Assembly (NCBI RefSeq): GCF_011947225.1
Contig: NZ_JAATVW010000007.1
Location: 124,001 to 188,000, forward strand
Direction: 5' to 3'
DNA length: 64,000 nt
Origin: Planosporangium flavigriseum
GTDB lineage: Bacteria > Actinomycetota > Actinomycetes > Mycobacteriales > Micromonosporaceae
Shown here one piece after another: positions 4,116 to 19,165 of the stretch (position 1 is its first letter; every line of letters starts with the position of its first letter). A program made the position numbers and the translations under genes. The notes beneath the pieces were generated by a model, which was not told the origin of the DNA, searched no databases, and was given only the letters and a program-made list of their open reading frames with translations.

Positions 4116-5062
4116 TCCGTTTCCTCGAACCGTGGTGGCTGCTGACCGTCATTCCGGTCCTCGCGGTGGCCGGCGCGTACGTGTGGCGCCAGGTGCGGCG
4201 GAAGGCGTACGCGATGCGCTTCACCAACGTCGAACTGCTGCGGGTCCTCGCGCCGCGCGGTATCGGCGCACGGCGGCACCTCGCGGCAGGCGCGTTGCTG
4301 GTCGCGCTGCTGGCGATGGCCGCCGGTATGGCCCGGCCGTCGGTCGACACCAGGGAACCACTCGAGCGGGCCACGATCATGCTTGCCATCGACGTGTCCC
4401 TGTCGATGGAGGCCACCGACGTGGCACCGACCCGGATCCAGGCGGCGAAGCAGGCCGCCAGCGAGTTCGTCAAGAACCTGCCGCCGACCTTCAACGTGGG
4501 GCTCGTGGCGTTCGCGAAGTCCGCCAATGTGCTGGTCTCGCCCACGAAGGATCGACCGGCCATCCAGCAGGCGCTCAACGGGCTGCAACTGGCCCAGTCC
4601 ACGGCGACCGGCGAGGCGGTCTTCTCGTGCCTGGAGGCGCTGCGCAGCGTGCCGGCCGACGGGGCCCAGGGGCTTCCTCCCGCGCGGATCGTGCTGCTGT
4701 CCGACGGGTACCGCACGTTCGGCCGCTCCATTGAGGAGGCTGCCACGGCGGCGGACACGGCCAACGTGCCGGTCTCGACGATCGCGTTCGGCACCGACAC
4801 CGGGATGATCGAGATCGACGGGCAGGCGCAGCGGGTACCGGTCGACCGGCCGTCGCTGCAGCGGCTGGCGCAGGCCACCAAGGGCCACTTCTACGAGGCG
4901 ACGTCCGCGGCCGAGTTGAAGCAGGTGTACCAGGACATGGGCAGCTCGATCGGGTACCGGACGAAGCCGCGCGAGGTGACCCAGTGGTACGTGGGGACGG
5001 CGCTGCTGTTCGCGCTCGCCGCGGCGGCGATGAGTCTGTTGTGGACGTCCCGGCTGCCGTGA
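4112..5062 (+). CDS. VWA domain membrane protein (BatA-like)
   Basis: 316 residues. It has two N-terminal membrane helices (about 8-25 and 55-73), an extracytoplasmic or cytoplasmic VWA domain with an intact MIDAS DxSxS (Asp94, Ser96, Ser98 in LAIDVSLSME) plus LLSDGYRTFG, and one C-terminal membrane helix (about 288-310). This is the layout of aerotolerance-type BatA proteins and of Rv1481. The ATG overlaps the DUF58 stop. It is the last gene of the MoxR-DUF58-VWA operon and is followed by a hairpin. Confidence 0.9.
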   Translation: MIRFLEPWWLLTVIPVLAVAGAYVWRQVRRKAYAMRFTNVELLRVLAPRGIGARRHLAAGALLVALLAMAAGMARPSVDTREPLERATIMLAIDVSLSMEATDVAPTRIQAAKQAASEFVKNLPPTFNVGLVAFAKSANVLVSPTKDRPAIQQALNGLQLAQSTATGEAVFSCLEALRSVPADGAQGLPPARIVLLSDGYRTFGRSIEEAATAADTANVPVSTIAFGTDTGMIEIDGQAQRVPVDRPSLQRLAQATKGHFYEATSAAELKQVYQDMGSSIGYRTKPREVTQWYVGTALLFALAAAAMSLLWTSRLP

Positions 5063-5088
5063 CCGGAGTCGCCGGCTAGCTCACCACG

Positions 5089-5113
5089 CCCTCCACCGTA
5101 CGTCGGCGGAGGG
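5089..5113 (+). terminator. GC-rich hairpin after the VWA gene
   Basis: CCCTCC-a-CCG (5089-5098) pairs with CGG-c-GGAGGG (5104-5113) around a 5-nt loop, 26 bp after the VWA stop. No U-tract follows. Position fits a terminator of the MoxR operon, and it is also downstream of the minus-strand micro-ORFs. Confidence 0.6.
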
Positions 5114-5119
5114 CCGGTT

Positions 5120-5203
5120 TCAGTGCGCGCTGACCAGAACGAAGACCACGGCCACCCACAGGGTGGCGAGGGTGAAGCCCAGTGGGGCGAGGTAACGGCT
5201 CAT
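5120..5203 (-). CDS. 27-residue single-helix membrane microprotein
   Basis: The frame reads MSRYLAPLGFTLATLWVAVV followed by FVLVSAH and a TGA. It is one hydrophobic helix with a short basic N-terminus, so it would insert in the membrane. A GGAG sits 6-7 nt upstream of the ATG on the minus strand. It lies where M. tuberculosis has Rv1482c but is unrelated in size. Too short for most gene finders; expression is unproven and function unknown. Confidence 0.45.
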   Translation of the reverse strand: MSRYLAPLGFTLATLWVAVVFVLVSAH

Positions 5204-5365
5204 CGACGGCTCCGGACGAGGCGAGAGGCGGACATGACCGGGGTGGGGTCAGAGCCGTGGCCGATGTCGCGGCGCCCTCGCGCCGGTCAGCGTGGACGTC
5301 GGTTCTCCACGTGCCGGTACGCCGACCGGATGGCCGGGAGCGGATGGGCGTGCGACAGGAGTGCG

Positions 5366-5416
5366 TCAGACAGTGACGCGAATCCGGCCACGACTCGGAG
5401 GATCGCTATCTCGCAC
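5366..5416 (-). CDS. 16-codon ORF behind a perfect Shine-Dalgarno
   Basis: A GTG at 5416 opens a 16-residue frame (MRDSDPPSRGRIRVTV). It is preceded on the minus strand by AGGAGGTGATC, a full match to the 16S anti-SD, 8 nt from the start. The peptide has no recognisable motif. It may be a leader peptide for the downstream 27-residue membrane ORF, or the SD may belong to a structured RNA. Low confidence as a gene; the SD itself is clear. Confidence 0.3.
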   Translation of the reverse strand: MRDSDPPSRGRIRVTV

Positions 5417-5480
5417 AGCGATCACCTCCTGAAGGTCGGGGCCGGTGGGGAGCGCGTAGGGCGCTCCGTAAGCGGGCATC

Positions 5481-5509
5481 ATCGTACACGTATCTCAGCC
5501 GAATTTCAC
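5481..5509 (-). promoter_or_regulatory. Candidate promoter for the micro-ORFs
   Basis: On the minus strand GTGAAA (5504-5509) and TACGAT (5481-5486) are separated by 17 nt, each matching 4 of 6 consensus positions. It points toward the 16-codon ORF and lies in the divergent region upstream of fabG. Confidence 0.35.
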
Positions 5510-5604
5510 CACGCGGGTTCGCTGTCCGACTTCTGTGTACCGGCCGGTAGCACATAGTCTCCGGTCCGAGAGGTACACGACCGAGACGGACAAAAGGGGG
5601 CACC

Positions 5605-6309
5605 GTGGCGCGCACGGTACTGGTCACGGGTGGTAACCGCGGCATCGGACTGGCGATTGCACGGGCGTTCGCCGCGCAGGGTGACCGGGTAGCGGTGACG
5701 CATCGCGGTGGAGCGGCGCCGGAAGGGCTCTACGGCGTCGTCTGCGACATCACCGACCCGGTCGCGGTCGACAACGCGTTCAGCAAGGTCGAGGCCGAGT
5801 TGGGCCCCGTCGAGGTCCTGGTCGCCAACGCCGGCATCACCGACGACACGCTGTTGCTGCGGATGAGCGAGGAGCAGTTCACGCGGGTGGTCGACACAAA
5901 CCTCACCGGCGCGTTCCGCTGTGCCAAGCGCGCCGCACCGAAGATGTTGCGGGCTAAATGGGGCCGTATGATCTTCATCTCGTCGGTCGTCGGCCTGTAC
6001 GGCAGCCCCGGGCAGGTGAACTACGCGGCGAGCAAGGCGGGCCTGGTCGGCATCGCGCGCTCGATCACCCGCGAGCTCGGCAGCCGTAACATCACGGCGA
6101 ACGTCGTGGCGCCCGGTTTCGTGGAGACCGACATGACCGCCGAGCTGCCCGATGACCGTAAGAAGGCGTACCGCGAGGCGATCCCGCTCGGCCGGTTCGC
6201 CGCGCCCGACGAGGTGGCGGCCGTGGTGACCTGGCTCGCCGGTGACGGCGCGGGGTACATCAGCGGCGCGGTCATCCCGGTCGACGGCGGCCTGGGCATG
6301 GGGCACTGA
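5605..6309 (+). CDS. fabG: 3-oxoacyl-ACP reductase FabG
   Basis: 234 residues, GTG start. It reduces 3-oxoacyl-ACP with NADPH in type II fatty acid synthesis (cytosol). The Rossmann motif GGNRGIG is near the N-terminus, NAG is at VLVANAG, the catalytic Ser is in FISSVVG, and the YxxxK pair is in YAASK. The C-terminal PVDGGLGMGH is typical of FabG1/MabA. Followed by fabI as in the mycobacterial fabG1-inhA operon, but here a 125-bp spacer with tandem repeats separates them. Confidence 0.95.
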   Translation: MARTVLVTGGNRGIGLAIARAFAAQGDRVAVTHRGGAAPEGLYGVVCDITDPVAVDNAFSKVEAELGPVEVLVANAGITDDTLLLRMSEEQFTRVVDTNLTGAFRCAKRAAPKMLRAKWGRMIFISSVVGLYGSPGQVNYAASKAGLVGIARSITRELGSRNITANVVAPGFVETDMTAELPDDRKKAYREAIPLGRFAAPDEVAAVVTWLAGDGAGYISGAVIPVDGGLGMGH

Positions 6310-6416
6310 GGCTGCGGCGTTTCAGCGGCTGCGGCGTTTCGGGCTGCGGCTTCTCGTGGCTGCGGCGTTTCGTGGCTGCGGTGATTTTGCGGCCTCGGCC
6401 ATGAGCGGCTGTGGCC
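6310..6416. repeat. Seven-unit 16-bp tandem repeat between fabG and fabI
   Basis: Units beginning GGCTGCGG (last ones GGCCTCGG and GGCTGTGG) start at 6310, 6327, 6342, 6358, 6374, 6391 and 6407, a period of 15-17 bp; the first five share the core GGCTGCGGCGTTTCG with small changes. The array starts at the last base of the fabG stop codon and ends shortly before the fabI ribosome binding site. It encodes no plausible protein. Confidence 0.8.
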
Positions 6417-6434
6417 ACTGAGTAGGGGGTTGGA

Positions 6435-7202
6435 ATGTCAGGACTGCTCGCCGGCAAGCGCCTGCTGGTCACCGGTGTCATCACCGACCAGTCGATCGCG
6501 TTCTCCATTGCCAAAATCGCCCAGGATGAGGGCGCCGAGGTCGTGCTCACCGGGTTCGGCCGGCTCTCGCTCGTCGAGCGCATCGCCAAGCGGTTGCCGA
6601 AGAAGGCGCCCGTCATCGAGCTCGACGTGACCAGCGACGAGCACCTCGAAGGGCTGGCCGACAAGGTCCGCGAGCACGTCGACGGGCTCGACGGCGTCGT
6701 GCACTCCATCGGGTACGCGCCGCAGAGCTGCCTCGGCGGTGGGTTCCTGGACGCGCCGTGGGAGGACGTGGCCACCGCGCTGCACGTCTCCACGTACTCG
6801 TACAAGTCCCTCGCCATGGCGTGCCTGCCCCTGATGAGCCCCGGTGGTGCCGTGGTCGGCCTGACCTTCGACGCCACGCAGGCCTGGCCGGTCTACGATT
6901 GGATGGGCGTGGCCAAGGCCGGTCTCGAATCGGCGAACCGCTACCTCGCGCTGCACTTGGGCGCCAAGGGTATCCGGGCCAACCTGGTCTCCGCCGGTCC
7001 GCTTCGGACGATGGCGGCCAAGTCCATCCCCGGCTTCGAGCAGTTCGAGGAGGCGTGGACCAACCGGGCGCCGCTCGGCTGGAGCCTCACCGACCAGGAG
7101 CCTGCGGCCCGAGCGTGCCTGGCGCTGTTGTCGGACTGGCTCCCGGCGACGACGGGTGAGATCGTCCACGTTGATGGAGGATTCCACGCGATCGGCGCGT
7201 GA
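6435..7202 (+). CDS. fabI: Enoyl-ACP reductase FabI (InhA type)
   Basis: 255 residues, ATG behind TAGGGGG. NADH-dependent enoyl-ACP reductase, last step of fatty-acid elongation. It has the divergent SDR nucleotide motif VTGVITDQSIAFSIA and the FabI/InhA active-site Tyr-X6-Lys (YDWMGVAKAG). VDGG near the C-terminus is conserved. As the InhA-type member it would be the expected isoniazid/triclosan-class target. In mycobacteria the ferrochelatase gene follows directly; here about 6.5 kb of accessory genes intervene. Confidence 0.95.
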   Translation: MSGLLAGKRLLVTGVITDQSIAFSIAKIAQDEGAEVVLTGFGRLSLVERIAKRLPKKAPVIELDVTSDEHLEGLADKVREHVDGLDGVVHSIGYAPQSCLGGGFLDAPWEDVATALHVSTYSYKSLAMACLPLMSPGGAVVGLTFDATQAWPVYDWMGVAKAGLESANRYLALHLGAKGIRANLVSAGPLRTMAAKSIPGFEQFEEAWTNRAPLGWSLTDQEPAARACLALLSDWLPATTGEIVHVDGGFHAIGA

Positions 7203-7331
7203 GGCGACGTTTAGCGCGGTTGTTTTCGGCGAGTCTCCTCTCGTTCGAAAGGATGGCTGGTACGACTCTGGCGACACAGGCCAGGGGCCGCCGCACCTCC
7301 TGATCCGATTCCGGCGAGGGAGGGGAGTGGT

Positions 7332-8552
7332 GTGTCGAGCCTCCGGAGGTCGGCCGGCCTGACGCGGCCGACGCTGTCCGCAATGCTTGCGCCCCGGGTT
7401 GTCACGCGCGAAGAGCGGTTCGGCGCCGTCGCCTACGTACCCGATCGCGATCACTTCTTCGGTCTGCGTGGCGCCCCGGCGCGGGTGGTCGTCGCGCTGG
7501 CGCGCGGGGATCCGATCGCACCGGCCGACGTGGACCTCGTCCGGGTGCTGGCCGAGTTCGGCATCGCGCGCACGGTGCCGGACACGGCGCAGCGTCCGCA
7601 CTTCGGTACGTCGCTGCTCGGGCACTTCGACGAGCCGCCCGTGGTGGACAGACCCTTGGTGGTCAACTGCTTCGCGACCGCGCACTGTCCACTTCGGTGC
7701 CGGTACTGCCACGCCGACGACCTGATGCAGGCGTACCGGGACAGCGAGAGCGACGACGAGTCGTGGCGGGTGGCGCGGATGGCCGCGGCCGTTCCCGCTC
7801 TCGTCGCGGTGGTCACCGGCGGCGAGCCGCTGATCCGGCCCGAGCGTACGCGGGTGCTCGTCGGGGAGGTCGCGGCGGCCGGGAAGGCTGTCGTCCTCGA
7901 CAGCTCGGGCGTCGGCGACCTCGACCCCGTACTGCCGGTGCTGTGCGAGTACGGGGTGCACGTACGCATCTCTATGGACAGTCTCGACCGGCGCGACAAC
8001 GACCGGATGCGCCCTGTCAACCGCCGTTACCTGCCGGCGGGCACCAGCTCCGGCGAGCGGGCGCTGCGCACACTGTCCGAACTGGCCGCCGCCGGGATCG
8101 CCACCACCGTCCAGACCGTGGTGACCGCCGGCAACGAGAACCTCGACTTCCTGTACGCGATGCGGGACGGACTGATCGCGCTCGGCGTACGCAACTGGGT
8201 GCTGCACGTCGTCGTACCCGCGGGCAAGGCGGCGCTGCCCCGCAACCAGGAGCTGCGACCCAGCGCGTACGTGCTGCCCACCCTCGCCGAGCTGGTGACG
8301 GTGTCCGCGGACGAGCGGCTGCCCCTCAACATCAGGGTGACCGGCACCCACCGGGCGCCCAACTCGGTGCTGCTGATCGGCAGCCGGGGCGATCTGTACG
8401 TCGAGCGGGAGTTCGGCGGCAAGCTCCGGATCGCCGGCCCGGACGACTCCGAAGCCGATGTCATAGAGGCCTTTCGAATTCACGTCAACCTGGTGGAGCA
8501 TGTGAGTCGGTACCTCAACGGGAGCATCCAGCTGTTCCCGCGCCAGCGGTGA
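7332..8552 (+). CDS. Radical SAM protein with PqqD-like N-terminal part
   Basis: 406 residues, GTG start behind GGAGGGGAG. The radical SAM cluster motif is Cys119-X3-Cys123-X2-Cys126 (CPLRCRYC) and the GGEPL motif follows at about residues 165-170. Residues about 25-85 (FGAVAYVPDRDHFFGLRG and the helices after it) look like a PqqD/RRE-type winged helix, the peptide-binding domain of RiPP-maturing radical SAM enzymes; this assignment is tentative. There is no obvious SPASM cysteine set at the C-terminus. Substrate unknown. It is the first gene of the accessory block inserted between fabI and the ferrochelatase. Confidence 0.8.
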   Translation: MSSLRRSAGLTRPTLSAMLAPRVVTREERFGAVAYVPDRDHFFGLRGAPARVVVALARGDPIAPADVDLVRVLAEFGIARTVPDTAQRPHFGTSLLGHFDEPPVVDRPLVVNCFATAHCPLRCRYCHADDLMQAYRDSESDDESWRVARMAAAVPALVAVVTGGEPLIRPERTRVLVGEVAAAGKAVVLDSSGVGDLDPVLPVLCEYGVHVRISMDSLDRRDNDRMRPVNRRYLPAGTSSGERALRTLSELAAAGIATTVQTVVTAGNENLDFLYAMRDGLIALGVRNWVLHVVVPAGKAALPRNQELRPSAYVLPTLAELVTVSADERLPLNIRVTGTHRAPNSVLLIGSRGDLYVEREFGGKLRIAGPDDSEADVIEAFRIHVNLVEHVSRYLNGSIQLFPRQR

Positions 8553-8598
8553 CGCGCTGGCGAGAAGAGGTGGCGCGACCTTAAGGCGGCGGGATGCC

Positions 8599-9165
8599 GT
8601 GACCGGGGCAGTGGAGACGGAGAGCAAGCACCGTGTCCGGGACACAGGTGCGGTCCGGGCCGTGCTCGACCGGCTCGGCTTCCGGGCGGACGCCGCGTCT
8701 CTGCAGGCCGACGAGTACTACGACACGCCCGCCGGCCTGTTGCGTACGGCGGATCTGGTGCTCCGGCTGCGGTTGATCGACGGGCAGGTGACGGCGGGCT
8801 TCAAGGGGCCGCGGACGTTTCTGACGGACGGCTCGCACTCGCGGTTGGAGGTGGAGCTTCCGGCCGCCGAAGCCGAAGAGGTGCGTGAAGAGTTGGCGCG
8901 ACAGGGGCTCGTCTGCGTCTGGCGCCTGCAGAAGCGGCGGCGTGAGTACCGCAGGGCCGGGTTGTCCATCGTCGTCTGCCTGGACGAACTGCCGAGGCTG
9001 GGGCACTTCGTGGAGCTTGAGGGGCCCTCCGACGACATCGCCGCGGTGAGACGGTCCCTCGGCGCCCACATCGGCCCGCCCGAGCGGCTCAACTACCGCG
9101 ATCTGGCGCGGCGGTGGATGGCCGAGCGCGGAAGCGTGACCGCCGCGCTGACGTTCGGGGCGTAG
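8599..9165 (+). CDS. CYTH domain protein (CyaB / class IV adenylate cyclase-like)
   Basis: 188 residues, GTG start. The hallmark ExExK motif is at residues 6-10 (ETESK), followed by the alternating charged strands of the triphosphate tunnel (LRLRLIDG, AGFKGPRT, LEVELP, KRRREYR, LDELPRLGHFVELEG). CYTH enzymes bind triphosphates with divalent metal and act as adenylate cyclases, thiamine triphosphatases or RNA triphosphatases. The length matches the CyaB subfamily. Actual substrate unknown; it sits 46 bp after the radical SAM gene. Confidence 0.85.
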   Translation: MTGAVETESKHRVRDTGAVRAVLDRLGFRADAASLQADEYYDTPAGLLRTADLVLRLRLIDGQVTAGFKGPRTFLTDGSHSRLEVELPAAEAEEVREELARQGLVCVWRLQKRRREYRRAGLSIVVCLDELPRLGHFVELEGPSDDIAAVRRSLGAHIGPPERLNYRDLARRWMAERGSVTAALTFGA

Positions 9166-9261
9166 TTCCCGTTACGAGCGCCGGTGACCAGTGGCGGCGC
9201 CCGTCGGCCGCGCTACATTTGACGGGTTCGGAGTCGGTTTGGCGGTGCACCGCGTGCGAAA

Positions 9262-9277
9262 CCTCCCGTAAAGGAGG
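9262..9277 (+). promoter_or_regulatory. Hairpin that can sequester the SD of the next gene
   Basis: CCTCC (9262-9266) and GGAGG (9273-9277) are perfect complements with a 6-nt loop. The GGAGG is the ribosome binding site of the TTG-start gene at 9284, so the hairpin could limit its translation. Confidence 0.4.
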
Positions 9278-9283
9278 AACGCC

Positions 9284-9883
9284 TTGTTATCGACATACGT
9301 AACCTGGATTCTCGTGCTCCTCGCCCTTGCGGCGGGCGCGTGGGTCCTCATCCGCCCTAGCGGAGGTGCTCGGCCGAACACGGCCCGCGCTGATTCGACT
9401 CCGTCCGCTGAGATGGGCACGGACGGGACGATCGTCCCCGACGAGGAGCGGACCACCACTCCCAGAACGCCCCCTCTCCATGCGGTCAACAGCCCGCAGC
9501 GGTTTCCGGGCGAGCTGCCCCCGCCGGCGGACCTGCCGCGGGGCGGGACACCGCCGATGATCGGCGGGACGACGCTCGCCTCCAGCGGGCAGTCGTTCGG
9601 CGACATGCCGTCGATGCCGCCGCTCGGGATGTGGAGCGACGGCTACGCGCAGTCCGTCCGCGACCGCTGGCGCGACCTGCAGCTTCGCTTCATCGACGAC
9701 CCGCACGAAGTGGCGAACGAGGCCGAGCGGGTCGTGGAGGAGACGGTGGAGGCCCTCACCGCGTCGCTCAACGCGTTCAAGAAGGACCTCGACGCCTGGC
9801 GCAACGGGCCGGGCGACACCGAGCAGCTGCGGGCCGCCGTGCACCGCTACCGTGACTTCCTGGACCGCCTGCTCGGCTCGTAG
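9284..9883 (+). CDS. Membrane-anchored hypothetical protein
   Basis: 199 residues from a TTG, chosen because AAAGGAGGAAC lies at ideal distance. One N-terminal membrane helix (about 5-23) is followed by a disordered Pro/Thr/Gly region (25-120) and a conserved C-terminal helical domain (QSVRDRWRDLQLRFIDDPHE to YRDFLDRLLGS). That C-terminal pattern recurs in uncharacterised actinobacterial proteins. Function unknown. It ends convergently, 21 bp from the SIR2 gene, with no terminator between. Confidence 0.75.
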   Translation: MLSTYVTWILVLLALAAGAWVLIRPSGGARPNTARADSTPSAEMGTDGTIVPDEERTTTPRTPPLHAVNSPQRFPGELPPPADLPRGGTPPMIGGTTLASSGQSFGDMPSMPPLGMWSDGYAQSVRDRWRDLQLRFIDDPHEVANEAERVVEETVEALTASLNAFKKDLDAWRNGPGDTEQLRAAVHRYRDFLDRLLGS

Positions 9884-9904
9884 CGCGTACCGACAACGGC
9901 CGCC

Positions 9905-12013
9905 TCAACCCGACTCACCCAGGAACAGGGCCGACACCTCCCGGGCGATTGCCTGGATGACCCGGGGCCGCTCAGCCGGCGTCTCAAGGGCTCGCACCAC
10001 GGCCTCCCACGAGTCCAGTGGACGGCCGCCGACCGACAGCGACGGGCGGTTGCGCAGGTACTGCGACAGCAGCAGCCCGTTCTGCACGATCCAGTGCAGG
10101 TAGTGCCCTTCGGTCCGCCACGTCGGCAGCTCGCAGGTTCGCTCCAGGTGCTCCTTCAGCTCCTGGAAGCTGTTGCAGCGCAGCATGCCGGCGTCCTGGC
10201 GCAGGTTCACGATCCGCGGGTTGTACAGGTGGCGTACCGGATCGGCGAAGACCTCGTGCCACAGCCGCCACATGGTGGCCTCGTCGTCGCCGCCGAGCGT
10301 GACGACGCAGTCGCCCTGGTTGTCGAGCAGGAGATAGTGCAGGTACGCCCAGACCGCGAGGGGGCTCCAGAGGCGCTCCGCCCGGGTGGTGGCCAGGCCG
10401 GTCGTCACGGCGACCGCGTCCACGTCGTCGGCGTCGGCGTCCGGGATGGACTTGATGGTCCTGGCGAGGGCGTACAGGGTGCTGTGGCGGTAGTAGTCGC
10501 GCTCGACCGCCCAGGGGTCGGTCGGGCGCGCCAGCATGGCCGGGTCGAGCAGACGCTTGGCGATCCGGTCCGGTTCGCAGAACGCCTCGAGCGACTCCAC
10601 CGTCGGCGGCCGGGCCCCCTCCACCAGCCGGAACCAGCGCTGTACGTCCGCACGCATCACCCGGCGCAGCTCGTCGGGGTGCACCTCGGCCGCAAGGTCC
10701 TCGAAGCACAGCAGTACCCGCATGCCGCGCGCCGACAGAGCGGCCGCGATGAGCGCCTGCACCGCGTGGATCAGGGTCGGCTGGCGCAGCTGCACCGGCC
10801 AGTACAGCACCGACGGCGGTACGTCGGCGGAGCCGCCCTCCAGGCGCCAGCCGAACTCGCGGTCGAGCTGGCGCAGGAGCTCGTCAGCCGACTGGCGAGC
10901 GCCCAGCAGGCGCTCCAGTTCGGTGTGCCGTACCCGATGCCCGCTTCCGGTGCGGGGCACCGGGATGAGGGGCGGCGGGCCCGGTGCGGTCTCCGGCACC
11001 GGTGCGGTCTCCGGCACCGGTGCGGTCGTCGGCACCGGCGTCGGCGGCGCGACCACGGGCACCCGCTCCTGCAGCACCCGCGACAGCGCCGGGAAGAGCC
11101 GGTCGCTGTCCACCCCGTGGTAGACCGACAGCGTGAGCGTCGGGTCTGCCGCCGACGGCAGCGGTGCGACGTCGGGATCCGCGCTGTGCAGCGCCCAGAG
11201 CACGTCGAGGTCGCCGCCGGCCGACAGGAGCCGGAGCGCGGCGGTGAACGTGTCGTCCCAACCGCTGCAACCGACAACGCAGATCGTCTCGTCGCGCAGG
11301 AGATCGGCCAGCTCACCGGCCACGGCGGCGCGGTTGGCCCGAAGCAGCTCGGGGTCGTGCAGCACCGACCGGTCGTCGGTTTCGTCGGTCGGTCGCCAGT
11401 ACCCGTGCAGGTGCACCACGTCCACGGTGCCCTCGTCGTCGAGCGGTGCCCGCAGCGTTCCGTCCCGTCTGAGGAGCAGCGTGCGTACCCGACCGCCCGC
11501 GCGCTGGACCGCGACCTCGATCAGCGGGTCGAAGTTGGTGGTGAGTACCCGGTGGCCGAAGCTGGCCGGCCGGGTCGCCAACAGGGCGCCGAGCGCGCGT
11601 ACCCCGGCGGGCAGCAGCCAGCTGTCCAGATCGGCCTCCAGAAGGGCGCCGCGCTGGAAGCCGACGCGCTCGAAGGCGCCGGCCGCGCCGTCCTGTGGGC
11701 CCTGGGCCTGCAGCACCGCCTGCTGCACCACGATGTCGAACTCGATCGGGGACACCCATTCGGTGAAGGTGCGCTTGTAGGCCCGGTACATGTCCACCGG
11801 CCGGTCGGAGTGGGCGGCGCGGACCTGGGCGAGCGCGGCCGCGAGGTCGGGGTTCTCGATGCCTTCGGCGACGAACCGGTCGGCCAGATCCACCATGCGC
11901 GCCACGCCGGGCACGGCGGGCGCGGTCACGCCCGAACCGAGGACGAGCGCCACCCGCCGGCCGCGCTGTACGGCTGTCGCCAGGCGGTTGACCAGACCGA
12001 CCTCGGTGGCCAC
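9905..12013 (-). CDS. SIR2-domain protein with uncharacterised C-terminal domain (candidate effector)
   Basis: 702 residues, GTG start behind GAGGAG. Residues 1-290 form a SIR2-like NAD-binding domain: GSGVT at 26-30, TTNFD with Asn160 and Asp162, and HLHG at 201-204, the residues that mark NAD-cleaving SIR2 effectors of defence systems such as ThsA. A Pro/Val-rich linker (about 322-355) contains a PVPETA repeat. The remaining 350 residues (WPVQLRQPTLIH, VLLCFEDLA, ERDYYRHSTLYALARTI, LYNPRIVNLR) are not recognised. It follows the caspase gene by 15 bp, so the two are almost certainly cotranscribed. Inferred role: toxic NADase or NAD-sensing effector of the three-gene system. Confidence 0.82.
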   Translation of the reverse strand: MATEVGLVNRLATAVQRGRRVALVLGSGVTAPAVPGVARMVDLADRFVAEGIENPDLAAALAQVRAAHSDRPVDMYRAYKRTFTEWVSPIEFDIVVQQAVLQAQGPQDGAAGAFERVGFQRGALLEADLDSWLLPAGVRALGALLATRPASFGHRVLTTNFDPLIEVAVQRAGGRVRTLLLRRDGTLRAPLDDEGTVDVVHLHGYWRPTDETDDRSVLHDPELLRANRAAVAGELADLLRDETICVVGCSGWDDTFTAALRLLSAGGDLDVLWALHSADPDVAPLPSAADPTLTLSVYHGVDSDRLFPALSRVLQERVPVVAPPTPVPTTAPVPETAPVPETAPGPPPLIPVPRTGSGHRVRHTELERLLGARQSADELLRQLDREFGWRLEGGSADVPPSVLYWPVQLRQPTLIHAVQALIAAALSARGMRVLLCFEDLAAEVHPDELRRVMRADVQRWFRLVEGARPPTVESLEAFCEPDRIAKRLLDPAMLARPTDPWAVERDYYRHSTLYALARTIKSIPDADADDVDAVAVTTGLATTRAERLWSPLAVWAYLHYLLLDNQGDCVVTLGGDDEATMWRLWHEVFADPVRHLYNPRIVNLRQDAGMLRCNSFQELKEHLERTCELPTWRTEGHYLHWIVQNGLLLSQYLRNRPSLSVGGRPLDSWEAVVRALETPAERPRVIQAIAREVSALFLGESG
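10981..11034. repeat. 18-bp minisatellite, three units, in the SIR2 linker
   Basis: Two identical 18-bp units (10981-10998, 10999-11016; CCGGTGCGGTCTCCGGCA) and a third with two changes (11017-11034). In frame, they encode the PVPETA hexapeptide of the interdomain linker, so slippage would change linker length without breaking the gene. Confidence 0.85.
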
Positions 12014-12028
12014 GACTTCTCCTCAGTC

Positions 12029-13288
12029 CTACCGGCCCTGCTGCTGCCAGAACCATGTGTCCAGCTGGGTGCCCGAGACCACCAGCTCACCGGCGGCCAA
12101 CTCGGCCTCGAGTTGGCCCGGCCGCCAGCCGAGGTACCCGACGAACAGGCACGCCGCCGACAGCGTGGACGCCGTGGCCCCGTCGACGGGCACCGCGACG
12201 GTGCCCAGCCCCCCGTGTACCGGCCGGAAGCCCGCGGGGCGACGCGCGTTCGCGTGCGGGGCGGCCAGCAGTATGACGACATCGCGCACCGGACCGCCGT
12301 CGAACACCGGCGCGAACGCGAGCGCCGCCGGCGTGGGGTGCTCGAAGACTTCCTGTGCCGAGCGTGTGGTCGGGCGGTCCAGTCGTACTCCCATGGCGCC
12401 GGTGGCGGGGCTGTGCGCGAGCACTGCCACCGTGGCGCCGCGCAGCTCATCGTCGCTCACCGCCGGGCCGGCGACCAGCACACTTCCAGCATGTGAAAGT
12501 GGACCGGGCTGGACGGCCGGCGGGGCCGGCGCGGGTCGCCGTGCCGGGCGGGCGAGGTTGCGCACCAGCGGTACCCGCTCGCCGCCGTTACGGCAGCGCA
12601 ACTCCGGCAACGGCCGGGCCTTTCGCCGCATGTCCAGCAGGACCTCGTCGTACACGGTCGCCACGTCGAGCGGGTCGGGGCCGTCGGGTACCCCTTCGCG
12701 CAACACCCCCACCAGCGCGCCGGTGAACGCGGTGTACTTCTCGTCCGGTGGTGCGAGGGCGACCCGGTTGGGGGAGGTGGCGACCAGGATGCAGGTCCGG
12801 TCGATCTCGACCTCGTCGGCGACCGCGGTCAGGTCGTCGCCCATGCCGCTGATCGCCCGCCCGGCGTAACAGCAGTCGAGGATCACGACCCGCCGGCTCG
12901 CCGGGCTCGCCAGGACGGAGCGGCGGATCCACTCGTATGGCACGGCGGTGGCGTACGCGGCTTCCCGGTCGGTCTCGCGGACGGCCAGGTGCAGTTCGCC
13001 GGTGCGCGCGTCGACCAGGCCGTGACCGGCGAAGTACACCAGCAGCAGGCCGCCGACGCCGGCCGAGCGAGCCGCCCGGCGCAGCGGTCCGTCGACCTCC
13101 TGCGGCGTTTTCGGGTCGGCCACGATGCGGCAGTTGTCCGCAGGCAGGCCCCAGAGCCGGTCGTCGGTCAGGACGTCGCAGATTCCGGTGAGATTGTTGG
13201 CGACCGCGGGCAACGGCGGCAGCCGGGTGTACGCGCCAACTCCGACGAGGGCGACCTGGGAGCGAAGCGGATCGGAGAGCTGCGCCAA
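12029..13288 (-). CDS. Caspase-family protease fused to a YqgE/AlgH domain
   Basis: 419 residues. Residues 10-215 are a C14 caspase/metacaspase domain: His89 in YFAGHG and the Cys pair 139/140 in VVILDCCYAG are the catalytic dyad motifs. After a Pro-rich linker (about 240-258), residues 265-415 match the YqgE/AlgH (DUF179) family: GSVLVAGPAVSDDELRGATV, MGVRLDRPT, FVGYLGWRPGQLEAELAAGE. The only usable start is TTG 13288, two codons after the EACC1 gene's TGA and in the same frame (TGA-CGG-TTG). Inferred: a signal-activated protease controlling the SIR2 effector. This domain fusion is one I do not know from described systems. Confidence 0.88.
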   Translation of the reverse strand: MAQLSDPLRSQVALVGVGAYTRLPPLPAVANNLTGICDVLTDDRLWGLPADNCRIVADPKTPQEVDGPLRRAARSAGVGGLLLVYFAGHGLVDARTGELHLAVRETDREAAYATAVPYEWIRRSVLASPASRRVVILDCCYAGRAISGMGDDLTAVADEVEIDRTCILVATSPNRVALAPPDEKYTAFTGALVGVLREGVPDGPDPLDVATVYDEVLLDMRRKARPLPELRCRNGGERVPLVRNLARPARRPAPAPPAVQPGPLSHAGSVLVAGPAVSDDELRGATVAVLAHSPATGAMGVRLDRPTTRSAQEVFEHPTPAALAFAPVFDGGPVRDVVILLAAPHANARRPAGFRPVHGGLGTVAVPVDGATASTLSAACLFVGYLGWRPGQLEAELAAGELVVSGTQLDTWFWQQQGR

Positions 13289-13291
13289 CCG

Positions 13292-13645
13292 TCAACCCGT
13301 TTCGACTTTCGCCGCGATCGCCTCGGCCTCAGCGGCGTCGTCGGTGTCGACCGGCACCTCCCGGCCGTCGCGCTCGATGATCACCCGTACCGGCCGCCCG
13401 TGCGAGGCGCGCCACATGATGATGGACAGCACAAGCTGCGCGGTCGTCAGGCCGGAGCCGATGACGAGGCCGAGTACGTCGAGGCCGGGTCCCATGTGAT
13501 CGGCGTGCCCTGGATCTGCGCTGCCGTCGCCGTCGGACATCGTCGGCTCGCCGTGCGTACGCACCCGCGGCTCATCCTGCAGCCAGGTGAACAGCGAGCG
13601 GGCCTCGTCGATCGAGCCGTCCGCCACGCGCACGCGTAATTGCAC
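13292..13645 (-). CDS. EACC1-like protein (effector-associated constant component)
   Basis: 117 residues, GTG start with GAGGTG upstream. It has an N-terminal strand QLRVRVADG, an SLFTWLQDEPRVR helix, a central hydrophobic Gly-containing helix (VIGSGLTTAQLVLSIIMW) and a terminal strand pair (VRVIIERDGREVPVD). This pattern matches the EACC1 family known from actinobacterial NTP-dependent conflict systems, where it is encoded directly before caspase, trypsin or other effectors. It probably couples sensing to the protease. First gene of the cassette, with its own promoter-like sequence. Confidence 0.8.
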   Translation of the reverse strand: MQLRVRVADGSIDEARSLFTWLQDEPRVRTHGEPTMSDGDGSADPGHADHMGPGLDVLGLVIGSGLTTAQLVLSIIMWRASHGRPVRVIIERDGREVPVDTDDAAEAEAIAAKVETG

Positions 13646-13691
13646 GCCCCGTCACCTCGCATCGACCCATGCGTCTGGTTGGAAGCCATCG

Positions 13692-13721
13692 ACCATACCT
13701 AAGGTAGCCACGCAATGTCAC
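13692..13721 (-). promoter_or_regulatory. Candidate promoter of the conflict cassette
   Basis: On the minus strand GTGACA (13716-13721, 5 of 6 to TTGACA) and TATGGT (13692-13697, 4 of 6) with an 18-nt spacer, about 45 nt upstream of the EACC1-like start. The divergent ferrochelatase gene starts at 13784. Confidence 0.45.
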
Positions 13722-13783
13722 TGTGTAAGAGCAGCGTGAGGGGTGGTCGACGGGGCGCTGAGGGCGGCGAGCAAGATAGCGGA

Positions 13784-14812
13784 ATGGAGTACGACGCGTT
13801 TCTGCTGGTTTCGTTCGGCGGTCCGGAGGGGCCGGACGATGTCATCCCGTTTCTGGAGAATGTGACGCGGGGGCGGGGAATCCCGGCAGAGCGGCTGGCC
13901 GAAGTGGCCGAGCATTACCGGCATTTCGGAGGTGTCTCGCCCATCAACGCCCAGAACCGCGAACTACTCGCGGCGCTCGCCGAGGAACTGCCCCGGGCGG
14001 GCATCGACCTTCCTCTGTACTGGGGCAACCGCAACTGGGAGCCGTACCTCAGCAAAACCGTTGCACAAATGCGCGATGACGGGGTCCGCCGGGCCATCGC
14101 GTTCGTGACCAGTGCGTACGGGTCGTACTCGGCGTGCGGGCAGTACCTCGAGGACATCGCGCGCGCCCGGGCCGAGGTGGGGCCCGACGCGCCGCACATC
14201 GACAAGCTTCGGCACTTCCACGACCACCCCGGTTTCGTACTGCCGCACGCCGACGCCGTGAAAGCGGCGCTGGACACGCTGCCGGACCGGACGCCGGAGC
14301 GCACCCGTCTCGTCTTCACCGCGCACTCGATCCCGACCTCGATGGACGCGACCAGCGGACCGGACGGTCGGCGGTACTCCACTCAGGTACGGGAGACCGC
14401 GCGCCTGGTCGGCGGCCTCGCCGCGCTGGAACTGGCGTGGGACCTCGTGTGGCAGAGCCGTTCCGGCCCGCCGCAGGTGCCCTGGCTGGAGCCGGACGTC
14501 AACGACCACCTGGAGGCGCTCGCTGCCGACGGGGTCCGCAACGTCGTGGTCTCGCCCGTCGGCTTCATCTCCGACCACCTCGAAGTCATCTGGGACCTCG
14601 ACAACGAGGCGGCCGAGACGGCGCGGAAACTGGGCCTGAACTTCGCCCGGGCCGCGACGCCGGACACCGACCCGCGGTTCGTCAGCATGGTGTGCGACCT
14701 GGTCCGGGAGCGGATCGACCCGGCGGCACCGCGGGCGGCGCTCGGCTGCGTGCCGACCTGGGACGTGTGCCCGCGCGACTGCTGCCCCGCACCTCGGAGG
14801 GCCGGTTCATGA
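13784..14812 (+). CDS. hemH: Ferrochelatase (coproporphyrin III type)
   Basis: 342 residues from the ATG before EYDAFLLVSFGGPEGPDD, the conserved N-terminus; upstream in-frame sequence is not protein-like. It inserts ferrous iron in heme synthesis (coproporphyrin III in Actinobacteria, hence cpfC). FTAHSIPTSMD contains the catalytic His and SPVGFISDHLEVIWDLDNEA the metal-binding Glu region. Cysteines in YSACGQY and the tail CVPTWDVCPRDCC match the [2Fe-2S] ligands of actinobacterial enzymes. Overlaps the HAD gene by 4 bp. Confidence 0.95.
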   Translation: MEYDAFLLVSFGGPEGPDDVIPFLENVTRGRGIPAERLAEVAEHYRHFGGVSPINAQNRELLAALAEELPRAGIDLPLYWGNRNWEPYLSKTVAQMRDDGVRRAIAFVTSAYGSYSACGQYLEDIARARAEVGPDAPHIDKLRHFHDHPGFVLPHADAVKAALDTLPDRTPERTRLVFTAHSIPTSMDATSGPDGRRYSTQVRETARLVGGLAALELAWDLVWQSRSGPPQVPWLEPDVNDHLEALAADGVRNVVVSPVGFISDHLEVIWDLDNEAAETARKLGLNFARAATPDTDPRFVSMVCDLVRERIDPAAPRAALGCVPTWDVCPRDCCPAPRRAGS

Positions 14813-15594
14813 CCGTCAGACCACGTAAGCCGGTCGAGTCCTGGCTGACCGACATGGACGGCGTGCTCATCCACGAAGGACACCCGATACCCGGCGCGCC
14901 GGAGTTCATCGGGAAGCTCCGTGAGTCGGGCCGGCCGTTCCTGGTGTTGACCAACAACTCCATGTACACCGCGCGTGACCTGCACGCCCGGCTGGCGCGG
15001 ATGGGCATCGACGTGCCGGAGACCTCGATCTGGACGTCCGCGCTGGCGACCGCCCAGTTCCTCGACGACCAGCGGCCCGGCGGCACCGCGTACGTCATCG
15101 GCGAAGCCGGGCTGACCACGGCGCTGCACGACATCGGGTACGTCCTGAGCAACCAGGAGCCCGACTACGTCGTGCTGGGGGAGACCCGCACCTACAGCTT
15201 CGAGGCGATCACCACGGCGATCCGGCTGATCAACAACGGCGCCCGGTTCATCGCGACCAACCCCGACGCGACCGGGCCGTCCGCCGAAGGCGCCCTGCCG
15301 GCGTGTGGCGCGGTGGCGGCGCTGATCTCGAAGGCGACCGGGGTGGACCCGTACTTCATCGGCAAGCCGAACCCGATGATGATGCGCTCGGCCCTCAACA
15401 CCATCAACGCGCACTCGGAGACGACCGCCATGATCGGCGACCGGATGGACACCGACGTGCTGTGCGGCCTGGAGGCCGGGCTGGAGACGATCCTGGTGCT
15501 CACCGGCATCAGTACCCGCGCGGACATCGACCGGTACCCGTACCGCCCGTCGCGGGTGATCCCGTCGATCGCGGAGTTGATCGACGAGGTGTAG
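14809..15594 (+). CDS. HAD-IIA family hydrolase (NagD-like phosphatase)
   Basis: 261 residues; ATG overlaps the ferrochelatase stop and has CGGAGGG upstream. Motif I is a variant, TDMDGVL, motif II is VLTNNS, and motif III/IV is KPNPMMM ... MIGDRMDTDVLCGLEAG. This cap-C2a HAD layout is that of NagD/AraL-type sugar-phosphate or pyridoxal-phosphate phosphatases. Cytosolic. Its coupling to the ferrochelatase suggests a shared transcript rather than a known heme role. Confidence 0.9.
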   Translation: MTVRPRKPVESWLTDMDGVLIHEGHPIPGAPEFIGKLRESGRPFLVLTNNSMYTARDLHARLARMGIDVPETSIWTSALATAQFLDDQRPGGTAYVIGEAGLTTALHDIGYVLSNQEPDYVVLGETRTYSFEAITTAIRLINNGARFIATNPDATGPSAEGALPACGAVAALISKATGVDPYFIGKPNPMMMRSALNTINAHSETTAMIGDRMDTDVLCGLEAGLETILVLTGISTRADIDRYPYRPSRVIPSIAELIDEV

Positions 15595-15598
15595 TCGG

Positions 15599-16384
15599 CT
15601 AGATCATCGGGGCGTTGCAGGCGGCGACCAGCGCCCGACGGCAGGAGGCCAGCAGCGGGCGAAGCGCGGCATCGCGCTGCTGCGCCTCGTACCCGTTGAC
15701 CGCGCCGCCGGGAGCGGACTGGTCAGCCAGGGCCAGCACCTGATCGAGGACGCTGGCCCGGGCGTAGAGCCGGCGGGCCCGGGGGTCGTAGCCCGGCGGA
15801 AGATCCGCGGCATTGTCCGGGCTGCGGAGCGCTGCGAGGGCGCTGGCCAGTTCCGGCCGCCACTGCGCGATGTCGAGCCGGGCGAGGGCCCGGGTCGACT
15901 CGGCGAGGGTCTGGGACAGCTCAGCCTCGGCCTCCGCGGCGGTCGGTTCGTCGACCGGCCGCCCCGTGGACTCGGGCAGCGGGTAGCAGCGCCACAGCAC
16001 CGTCTCGAAGGTCACCCCGGAGCCGGAGGTGTGCGTGCGCACCTCGGGAACCAGTCCGAGCCCCGGTGTTACGACACCCTCGCCAGCGACCAGGGCCGCG
16101 CCCGTGAACGGGCCGGGGCCGGGCAGGCCACGGGGGTCACCCGGCGCGGGCAGCGCCAGCCGGATCTGGTCCGGGTGGCACTTGGAGAGGTGCGTGAGCC
16201 CCTCGCCGAGCGGGATGTCGGTCCAGGTGCCGGGGGCGTCCGCGACCAGGTGCTCCTCGTCGGCCGCGATCTGGTCGGCGACGTCGTCGTACGGCACCAG
16301 GCCGGCGCGCCAAGCGCGTACCCAGGCGACGAACCGGGTCGACCGGCGCACGGTCATGGTCGCCTCGTGCGCTGCGGGGAACAT
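15599..16384 (-). CDS. Conserved hypothetical protein
   Basis: About 261 residues with start at 16384 (MFPAAHEATMTVRRSTRF); an ATG at 16357 is an alternative. No family was recognised. It contains DDVADQIAADEEHLV, a substrate-pocket-like hydrophobic middle (GLGLVPEVRTHTSGSGVTFETVLWRCYPLP), and a helical C-terminal third. No signal peptide or membrane segment. It ends 4 bp from the HAD stop (convergent) and is divergent from DUF3097. Confidence 0.7.
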   Translation of the reverse strand: MFPAAHEATMTVRRSTRFVAWVRAWRAGLVPYDDVADQIAADEEHLVADAPGTWTDIPLGEGLTHLSKCHPDQIRLALPAPGDPRGLPGPGPFTGAALVAGEGVVTPGLGLVPEVRTHTSGSGVTFETVLWRCYPLPESTGRPVDEPTAAEAEAELSQTLAESTRALARLDIAQWRPELASALAALRSPDNAADLPPGYDPRARRLYARASVLDQVLALADQSAPGGAVNGYEAQQRDAALRPLLASCRRALVAACNAPMI

Positions 16385-16497
16385 GCCCGCAACTGTACGT
16401 GCTGCATGGGCGACTGTCTCGTGCCTGCCGGCGTACGTGTCGTCGCATGGGCGCGTCGCCGTGATAAGCCGCATCGACCCCGATAGGCTCCCCGCTC

Positions 16498-17304
16498 GTG
16501 TACGGCGAAGACGTGCTCGCGGGCAACTGGCGGCGACGCAAGGTGGTGCCCGAGATCGACGCGGAACCCGATCTCGTCGTCGAGGACGCGGACTCCGGGT
16601 TCTGCGGCGCTGTCGTCGGGTTCGAGTTCGGCGCGGTCGTGTTGGAGGACCGGCACGGCCGGCGTCGCAACTTCCCGCTGGAGCCGGCGGCGTTCCTGCT
16701 CGACGGCGAGGTCGTGACCCTGCGCAAGCCGGCGGCAGCGGCCGCTCCGGCGAAGCCGCGCCGTACCGCGTCCGGGTCGATCGCGCTGGACAAGGTCGAC
16801 GCGCGGGTCGCGCGGGCCAGCCGCATCTGGGTCGAGGGCATCCACGACGCCGCCCTGGTGGAGCGCATCTGGGGTGACGACCTGCGCATCGAGGGCGTGG
16901 TAGTGGAGCCGCTCGACGGTATCGACGAACTGCCGCAGGCGGTCCGCGCGTTCGGGTCCGGCCCGGAGCGCCGGCTCGGGGTGCTCGTCGACCACCTGGT
17001 GGCCGGCTCCAAGGAGAGCAGGATCGTCGCCTCGGTCACCTCACCCTATGTCCTGGTGACCGGCCATCCGTACATCGACATCTGGCAGGCCGTGAAGCCG
17101 GAGCGGCTCGGTATCCGGGCCTGGCCGCAGATCCCGCGTGGCCAGCCGTGGAAGGAAGGCGTCTGCGCGGCGCTGGGCGTGGCCGAACCGGTCGACCTGT
17201 GGCGGCGCATCCTCGCCTCGGTGTCGAGCTTCCGCGACGTGGAGACGCCACTGATCGGCGCGATGGAGCGGCTGATCGACTTCGTGACGGCCCCGGGCGA
17301 GTAG
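16498..17304 (+). CDS. DUF3097 family protein
   Basis: 268 residues, GTG start (MYGEDVLAGNWRRRKVVPEI). The family signature is visible in VEGIHDAALVERIWGDDLRIEGVVVEPLDGID and GVLVDHLVAGSKESRI, which resembles a TOPRIM-like acidic fold (Glu and DxD-type residues), and in HPYIDIWQAVKPE. It corresponds by position to Rv1486c in the mycobacterial gene order. Possibly nucleic-acid acting; not characterised. Confidence 0.88.
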   Translation: MYGEDVLAGNWRRRKVVPEIDAEPDLVVEDADSGFCGAVVGFEFGAVVLEDRHGRRRNFPLEPAAFLLDGEVVTLRKPAAAAAPAKPRRTASGSIALDKVDARVARASRIWVEGIHDAALVERIWGDDLRIEGVVVEPLDGIDELPQAVRAFGSGPERRLGVLVDHLVAGSKESRIVASVTSPYVLVTGHPYIDIWQAVKPERLGIRAWPQIPRGQPWKEGVCAALGVAEPVDLWRRILASVSSFRDVETPLIGAMERLIDFVTAPGE

Positions 17305-17312
17305 GCCCGGCC

Positions 17313-18671
17313 CTACCTCGCCGGCCAGGCGTCACGGGTGAACACGAACGTTGCGATGTCGAGTGCCGCCACGGCGTCGGCCTCCCGGCGTACCAACAGC
17401 ACTTCGCCCTCGTTGGACCCCGCGTGGCAGCGCCACCGGTCCGGCCCCTCGCGGGTGAATCGCCACGCCTGACCGTGCTCGGGTACGGACGTCAGCACCA
17501 ACTCGCCGGTCGCCGCGTCCCAGGAGGCCTGGAACTCCCTGCCCATCCACCACCACCGCCCGGTCAGCGGCAGCACGTCGGCGGGCGGTTCGGCGCCCGG
17601 CGCGGTCCCTGGCTCGGTCCCTGGCCGCCACGGCGCCGGGCGGGCCGGCTCCGCGTCGAGTACTGCGGTGAGCAGGTCTAGCCCCAGCTCACCGATGTGC
17701 CCGCCGTGCAGCGTGTACGCGTTGGCGAAGGCGACCACCCCGGTACGCGAGGGCCGGTGCACGGCGAGGACCGCCAGGTACCCGGGCATCGAGCCGGTGT
17801 GGCCCACGTACACCCGTTCGCCGCGCCGCCACAGTTGCAGCCCGAGCCCGTGCCCGGCGGTCCAGGAGTCGAGATCGCTGATCACCACGGGCACGCACAT
17901 CTCGGCCAGGGTGGCGGGCGTAAGAACGGACGGTTCGGGCTGCGCCAGGAACGTCGCCCAGCGCAGCAGGTCGTCGGTCGTGGACCACAGCTGGCCGGCG
18001 GGCGCCATCGCCCCGGCGTCGTGGCGCGGCTCCTCCCGCAGCGTGTCGTGCCACGGGTGCACCACGTACCCGCGGGCGAACGGCTCGGTCGGGTGGTACG
18101 TGGTCCGCGCCATGCCGAGCGGGACGAGCAGGCGCGTGGCGACGAGGTCCCACCACGGCTGCCCGGTGAGCCGGGTCAGTGCGGCACCGAGCAGCCCGTA
18201 CCCCAGGTTGGAGTAGTGGTGGGTCCGGTGCGGCGGGTACGCGATCTTCTCCGGGGTGAGCGCGCCCAGGAAGCGGTCCAGGTCGACGCCGGCCGACCGC
18301 TCCCACCAGTCGCCGTCGGGCTCGCTCTGCAGCCCGGAGACGTGACCGAGGAGTTGTCGCACGGTGACGTCGCCGACGGGGGTGCCCGGGAGGTGTCGGC
18401 GCAGCGGGTCGTCGAGCACCAGCCGGCCTTCGTCGCGGAGCGCGAGGACCAGCGCGGCCGTCATCGTCTTGGTGATCGAGCCGATCCGGAACTGCGTGTC
18501 GGGCCCGGGTCGGGAGCCCTGCCCGGCGCCGGTGAACTCCCCGGCGCCGGTGAAGTGGACCGGCTCCCCGTCGCGTACGACCGCGGCGACCAGGGCGGGT
18601 ACTCGACCGTGTGACTGCGCCGCCGCGACGGCGTCGTCGATCCGGCGGGCGGTGTCGGGCAGCAGCGGCAT
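17313..18671 (-). CDS. Serine hydrolase of the beta-lactamase / class C PBP family
   Basis: 452 residues. Motif 1 SxxK is in RIGSITKTM, motif 2 YxN in YSNLGYG, and motif 3 HTG in VGHTGSMPGY, so the active site is complete. About 100 extra C-terminal residues form a small beta domain (LTGRWWWMGREFQASWD) as in D-aminopeptidase or esterase relatives. No signal peptide is obvious, so it may be cytosolic. Likely an esterase or peptidase rather than a true beta-lactamase. Confidence 0.88.
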   Translation of the reverse strand: MPLLPDTARRIDDAVAAAQSHGRVPALVAAVVRDGEPVHFTGAGEFTGAGQGSRPGPDTQFRIGSITKTMTAALVLALRDEGRLVLDDPLRRHLPGTPVGDVTVRQLLGHVSGLQSEPDGDWWERSAGVDLDRFLGALTPEKIAYPPHRTHHYSNLGYGLLGAALTRLTGQPWWDLVATRLLVPLGMARTTYHPTEPFARGYVVHPWHDTLREEPRHDAGAMAPAGQLWSTTDDLLRWATFLAQPEPSVLTPATLAEMCVPVVISDLDSWTAGHGLGLQLWRRGERVYVGHTGSMPGYLAVLAVHRPSRTGVVAFANAYTLHGGHIGELGLDLLTAVLDAEPARPAPWRPGTEPGTAPGAEPPADVLPLTGRWWWMGREFQASWDAATGELVLTSVPEHGQAWRFTREGPDRWRCHAGSNEGEVLLVRREADAVAALDIATFVFTRDAWPAR

Positions 18672-18726
18672 GGCGGCGATCTTATGGCCGTCGCGGAGGC
18701 GTGCGCGTACGTGTCACGATCGAGGC

Positions 18727-19158: not shown

Positions 19159-19165
19159 GATACCA

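Follow-up and report, generated by a model that had tools for sequence, protein, structure and literature searches.

Here we describe an inserted gene block in a 64,000-nucleotide stretch of the Planosporangium flavigriseum genome (GCF_011947225.1, contig NZ_JAATVW010000007.1, positions 124,001-188,000, forward strand; the whole stretch is called the window below), in which the genes for an EACC1 protein, a caspase-AlgH/YqgE fusion and a SIR2-like protein form one unit. Comparison with relatives established the gene set, the intact catalytic motifs of its products, the co-occurrence and joint inheritance of the caspase-AlgH and SIR2 genes, and the insertion of the block between fabI and hemH. 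We see an even chance that the block carries an enlarged EACC1-caspase conflict module whose caspase would release a latent SIR2 NADase; judged from the sequence, its role is most likely suicide or stress defence. Within the literature searched, the extension by AlgH, SIR2, Xre-like and radical-SAM components appears to be an undescribed variant. The block and its core genes are as follows.

7203..13714, no strand: full extent of the insertion that separates the fabI-like gene from hemH (from the adjacency in relatives)
13292..13645, minus strand: EACC1 protein, 117 amino acids (PF19953, 1.6e-23)
12029..13288, minus strand: fusion of a caspase (residues ~10-225) and AlgH/YqgE DUF179 (residues ~265-410), 419 amino acids (PF00656, PF02622, NF047832)
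9905..12013, minus strand: SIR2-like protein, 702 amino acids, with a SIR2_2 domain (residues ~1-315), a Pro-rich linker and an orphan C-terminal domain (residues ~355-702) (PF13289)

A preliminary description of this DNA had proposed three same-strand genes, separated by 3 and 15 bp, and one promoter-like sequence in front of the first. The open reading frames are present at the positions claimed, all on the minus strand and with these gaps, and EACC1 is preceded by one sigma-70-like site at 13721-13692 (9/12; shuffles, mean 0.0, standard deviation 0.2), which is a mere consensus match. The domain assignments were borne out as well, since all three proteins exceed curated cut-offs in Pfam/NCBIfam. 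The 117-residue protein is indeed an EACC1 protein (PF19953, 83.2 bits versus a cut-off of 23.6), the single EACC1 match in its own genome. Its residues ~58-76 form one hydrophobic stretch with a G-S-G patch (hydropathy 1.84 over 19 residues), which is, by hydropathy only, a predicted membrane helix with a small-residue patch. In the fusion protein, the caspase domain (PF00656, 39.6 bits versus 21.4, 6.2e-10) is followed C-terminally by DUF179/AlgH as the variable domain (PF02622, 53.3 bits versus 27, 4e-14). The protein also matches NCBIfam NF047832, caspase_w_EACC1 ("caspase, EACC1-associated type"; 235.8 bits versus 140), with the caspase N-terminal and in the 3' gene. A profile of 27 caspase-AlgH proteins matched, over the AlgH part, the solved UPF0301/AlgH chains 2gs5/2hrx (5e-24) and 2mui (AlgH, 3e-10). 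The SIR2 half was recognised as SIR2_2 (PF13289, 42.3 bits versus 24.5, 1.1e-10), and its closest solved chain is FAM118B 9r3e (1e-4).

The catalytic motifs noted in the preliminary description recur across the relatives. The caspase dyad, His89 and Cys139/Cys140, is invariant in 27 aligned caspase sequences, the window's included. The Gly-rich NAD loop, the Asn of TTNFD and the His of HxHG are NAD-site motif residues of SIR2; the window protein retains GSG, TTNFD and HLHG, and among the 28 SIR2 proteins compared TTNFD is found in all and HxHG in 26. A caspase of 382 amino acids at L103 5680-6828 (genome G140) is likewise EACC1-linked and has a C-terminal region without a Pfam match; it was the best-scoring caspase without AlgH in the caspase-AlgH profile search.

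The unity of the core genes is apparent from their distribution. Both the SIR2 protein and the caspase-AlgH profile were searched in 150 genomes of the family. The SIR2 protein matched in 29 of them, in both halves in 28; the remaining one, G031, holds a weak fragment (E 2.6e-4) and was excluded. The caspase-AlgH fusion was found in 27 genomes and, as two parts at separate contig ends, in G043, which are the same 28 genomes as for SIR2. The profile had been built from SIR2 neighbours, which favours finding this kind of fusion; among the matches listed, it matched in some part in 149 of the 150 genomes, caspases and unfused AlgH both being common. The co-occurrence is strong whether counted by genome (Fisher, 5e-31) or by genus (6e-9), and in 27 of the 28 loci the gene immediately upstream of SIR2 is caspase-AlgH, the 28th being truncated by a contig end. 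A neighbourhood survey had been named beforehand as a possible refutation of the three-gene set; caspase-AlgH and SIR2 turned out to share the same 28 genomes and to be adjacent. G043, with a cut caspase, and G073, in which the start of SIR2 is cut by the contig end, count as holders and not for genes beyond the contig end. L050 was omitted from alignment A3. EACC1 is present at 23 of the 26 SIR2-bearing loci whose contig extends to it. Distances between pairs of sequences were compared for EACC1, caspase-AlgH, SIR2 and the Xre-like protein described below; they correlate closely (r 0.92-0.98; Mantel p 0.001 with 999 permutations) and therefore indicate joint inheritance.

The block is an insertion, because fabI abuts hemH in all 14 other family genomes tested (gap -26 to 157 bp between match ends; eight genomes without the module and six with the module elsewhere) and the two genes are 6.5 kb apart in the window (7203-13714). 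In the same 14 relatives fabG, fabI and hemH are contiguous and island-free. The gene names fabG, fabI, hemH, vWA and HAD are presumptive, being recognised by eye from the proteins without profile assignment. In more distant holders the module has different neighbours, and one genus (g44) contains two SIR2 lineages with 35% identity (L044 versus L055), one of them nearer to g1 and g24. The differing sites and the two divergent g44 lineages fit horizontal movement of the module. No border repeat and no change in guanine-cytosine content was seen at the island edges, and an Rfam scan of 5000-20000 returned no family. In a plasmid collection, 9 records matched the SIR2 protein and 44 matched caspase-AlgH, none covering >80% of the query.

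In relatives the unit is extended by a fourth gene. A small same-strand Xre-like gene follows SIR2 in 27 of the 28 loci, the window being the sole exception:

9884..9904, no strand: junction at which the 27 other loci have the Xre/MbcA/ParS-antitoxin-like gene, absent here (from locus comparison)

Alignment with the close relatives L002, L003 and L067 places the absent stretch after the window's SIR2 stop. A search of the own genome up to E<=1 gave no Xre-like match, a blank result that is weak evidence, and none was found elsewhere in the window. The window also lacks a type II toxin-antitoxin arrangement, in that no antitoxin-like gene was found beside SIR2. PF09722, the toxin-binding C-terminal domain of Xre/MbcA/ParS antitoxins, matched 8 of the 27 Xre-like proteins at E<=0.1, the best at 8.9e-9 and above the cut-off. 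As the SIR2 motifs are intact beside the lost Xre-like gene, the window SIR2, if it is a toxin, is probably off by default.

The C-terminal domain of the SIR2 protein (~350 residues) had no credible Pfam or PDB sequence match. At its boundary with SIR2, an R-x-R-[H/Q] stretch, counted by eye, occurs in 23 of the 28 proteins and is a candidate cleavage site. The domain holds a HIGH-like motif, IHxxQ...RGxxVxxCxDD, spotted before any structure search, and on this account a class I synthetase-like fold was suspected. Profile comparison with class I synthetases failed. AlphaFold models, from alignments of four rows, were poor (mean predicted local distance difference test score, pLDDT, 52.4 and 49.3), and Foldseek on these models returned TyrRS-type entries at ranks 1, 2, 4, 5 and 24 and a cyclodipeptide synthase at rank 43 among the best 50 rows, none of them significant (4hjr and 7ckg are TyrRS variants). 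VIA on the models placed dehydrogenases (5.8) slightly above synthetases (5.0). A TyrRS-like, that is class I synthetase-like, fold is thus a lead only.

Of 246 genomes of the class searched for this C-terminal domain (8 candidates scored per genome), none but the own genome and G332, of another family, gave a match; the G332 protein matches the domain at 4.3e-18 and has a helix-turn-helix-like stretch with sub-threshold matches only (best 0.0068). In G332, at L099 1189-2616 and 203-1864 (also L101), the C-terminal-domain protein adjoins a same-strand radical-SAM gene, without SIR2. A search of 13 genomes around G332 recovered G332 itself only, and the two patterns used on viral contigs found no relative of the domain.

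The block is larger than the three-gene set that had been put forward; those genes are real, and radical-SAM and CYTH genes lie beside them, together with the Xre-like gene in the 27 other loci. The remaining genes of the window's block are:

7332..8552, plus strand: radical SAM protein of a family without a name, 406 amino acids, accessory partner (PF04055, 4.2e-14)
8599..9165, plus strand: CYTH-domain protein, 188 amino acids, possible accessory (PF01928, 6.1e-19)
9284..9883, plus strand: 199-amino-acid protein, no Pfam family above cut-off

The radical-SAM family (E<=1e-60, 12 candidates scored per genome) occurs in 12 of the 150 genomes, all within the 28 holders (Fisher, 1.8e-10 by genome and 4e-6 by genus), and its gene adjoins the module in 11 of them, G129 having it on a different contig. 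Since it was not found at this threshold in the 16 other holders, we regard it as optional. No named equivalog scored above its cut-off for this protein among the matches listed, and at 34.4 bits versus a viperin cut-off of 180 it was not classed as viperin. At L044 and L046, where no EACC1 was found, the SIR2 and Xre-like genes are followed in the same orientation by a second radical-SAM type; a relative of this type is the one that adjoins the C-terminal-domain protein in G332. The CYTH gene adjoins the module in 8 of the 28 loci, and its product in the window scored 51.0 bits against cyaB, under the cut-off of 57.95. The 199-amino-acid protein was present only in the window and at L002, L003 and L067 among the 28 loci. 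Outside the block, vWA-, fabG- and fabI-like genes precede the island (4112-7202) and hemH- and HAD-like genes follow it (13715-15594).

An enlarged EACC1-caspase module would most likely operate as follows. EACC1 would be anchored in the membrane, sense there and signal to the caspase. The substrate of the caspase would then be the SIR2 protein, with a possible cut in the Arg-rich stretch that separates its SIR2 and C-terminal domains, or else a complex held by AlgH. Cleavage would free the latent SIR2 NADase, and the loss of NAD would kill or arrest the infected or stressed cell compartment. Where present, the Xre/MbcA-like protein would repress or restrain SIR2, and the radical-SAM enzyme would serve as an optional modifier.

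Several observations weigh against this proposal. EACC1 was not found at L044, L046 and L048, three of the 26 loci whose contig reaches far enough, and may therefore be dispensable. Against a uniform cleavage site stand the five of 28 proteins without R-x-R-[H/Q] and a linker that is short in 19 of the 28 loci. The SIR2 proteins at L045 and L047 have HxNG instead of HxHG (2/28), so that their catalysis is possibly altered or lost. PF09722 was missing at E<=0.1 from 19 of the 27 Xre-like proteins, and two of these Xre-like proteins reached only 28.1 and 21.3 bits with NCBIfam antitoxin models (cut-off 90). The sole check for a defence context, a PADLOC scan of the three core proteins, gave a best match of only 4.6e-7, to SIR2 over residues 136-260. 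The distance correlations partly reflect species history, and each genome search scored a limited number of first-look candidates, which makes the absences incomplete.

The direction of signalling could be the reverse, which we consider unlikely: SIR2 would act upstream, making an NAD-derived signal or sensing the NAD state and thereby activating the caspase, with caspase-AlgH as the killer. That both caspase and SIR2 retain their catalytic motifs suits this order of events, against which stand the facts that the known SIR2 domains of defence proteins are NAD depleters and that Pfam assigns no nucleotide-sensor domain to the caspase protein. NAD depletion is given for ThsA also in the available sections of PMC12847820, which, with type IV Thoeris, supply a precedent for an NAD enzyme and a caspase together. 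Quite unlikely, in our estimate, is a toxin-antitoxin pair of SIR2 and the Xre-like protein that travels with an EACC1-caspase system, in which case the caspase may target the antitoxin and not SIR2. The Xre/MbcA-like gene after SIR2 in nearly all loci speaks for such a pair, and a RES-type NAD toxin has a partner of this kind (PMC11535050, from excerpts), but no such SIR2 protein was found without caspase-AlgH among the 150 genomes, and the window SIR2 keeps its motifs without the Xre-like gene.

The block might also have no defence function and serve hyphal actinobacteria as a regulatory module for development or for redox/NAD, which we rate as very improbable and the least probable of the readings considered here. 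AlgH/YqgE is widespread outside conflict systems, which counts for such a role, as do the stand-alone AlgH copy in many of the 150 genomes searched and the lack of any phage or mobile-element family in the Pfam results for the six proteins of the block. The differing sites, the two deeply divergent lineages in one genus and the presence in 28 of 150 genomes, however, fit a transferred conflict module better. A more elaborate version of the conflict module is an immune island of five parts. In it, caspase-AlgH and EACC1 as a membrane sensor would free a SIR2 NADase held by a TyrRS/cyclodipeptide-synthase-like nucleotide-binding domain; the radical-SAM enzyme would modify the ligand of this domain or supply it, and the Xre-like antitoxin would be a safety catch. 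We hold this version decidedly unlikely. Release of a latent SIR2 NADase by the caspase of an enlarged EACC1-caspase module is the reading that we retain.

From bacteria to animals, immune cell death involves caspases as well as enzymes that destroy NAD. A conserved caspase and NAD-enzyme locus behind a membrane component, of which a natural copy without the antitoxin-like gene exists, makes caspase-controlled NAD depletion testable, and the locus is a lead on a possible role of the widespread protein AlgH/YqgE.

Components of this kind are known from other systems, and System 4, canu and the RES-type NAD toxins with Xre/MbcA-like partners are precedents for the mechanism proposed above. ThsA, DSR2 and the partners of SIR2-pAgo are SIR2 NADase defence proteins; these and FAM118B share with the window protein a SIR2-type domain with NAD-site motifs, and the window protein differs from the defence proteins in its orphan C-terminal domain and its weak PADLOC match. 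MbcT-MbcA is one RES/Xre toxin-antitoxin module. In another, NatT-NatR, an NAD-degrading RES toxin is partnered by a protein with an Xre/MbcA/ParS-like C-terminal domain (PMC11535050, in the text available). This resembles the relatives of the window, in which an NAD-degrading type of enzyme stands beside an Xre/MbcA/ParS-like protein, except that SIR2 takes the place of RES, caspase and EACC1 are added, and the antitoxin-like gene is absent from the window. According to the accessible part of PMC12847820, TIR-made N7-cADPR activates a caspase-like protease in type IV Thoeris, which likewise combines an NAD enzyme with such a protease; here, no TIR domain was matched and no nucleotide sensor was recognised on the caspase protein. 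In canu (CanABC; PMC12799240, excerpted text), a caspase was shown to activate a separate latent enzyme, and a caspase and a partner protein likewise stand beside a latent effector enzyme, which in canu is a nuclease, with CanA of Ig-like fold, in contrast to SIR2, AlgH and EACC1 here. The Pfam matches of the block's six proteins include neither a TIR gene as in Thoeris nor a pro-nuclease gene as in canu.

The preliminary description, whose interpretation is borne out in part, knew of no described system with this gene set, which appears to hold for the enlarged set only. Titles or abstract beginnings on EACC1, caspase/SIR2, YqgE/AlgH/DUF179, SIR2/Xre and caspase/Thoeris did not describe it; the words AlgH, YqgE, sirtuin, DUF179 and Sir2 (the last two as whole words) are absent from the main text of PMC7159879, and the portion of PMC8195603 available has no AlgH, YqgE or DUF179 and mentions SIR2 once, where it is one of 13 effector domains belonging to another system (EAD10). 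EAD2 (PF19956) had no match in the own genome, which is uninformative, as the query matched nowhere. The core is already known, because the EACC1-caspase pair is the published System 4 of Kaur et al. 2020 (PMC7159879). In the sections of that paper available, System 4 is a membrane-associated two-gene system of EACC1 followed by a protein that often has an N-terminal caspase and, at its C terminus, one of as many as 50 domains, and membrane sensing with effector deployment via auto-proteolysis was proposed. The label "NTP-dependent" therefore does not suit the locus, since System 4 is membrane-associated and Pfam matched no NTPase family in the three proteins. As in System 4, the EACC1 gene comes first, and the caspase that comes next is of the EACC1-associated type and ends in a variable domain; the locus departs from it in having AlgH as the variable domain, SIR2 as a third gene and radical-SAM/CYTH neighbours, joined in the relatives by the Xre-like fourth gene.

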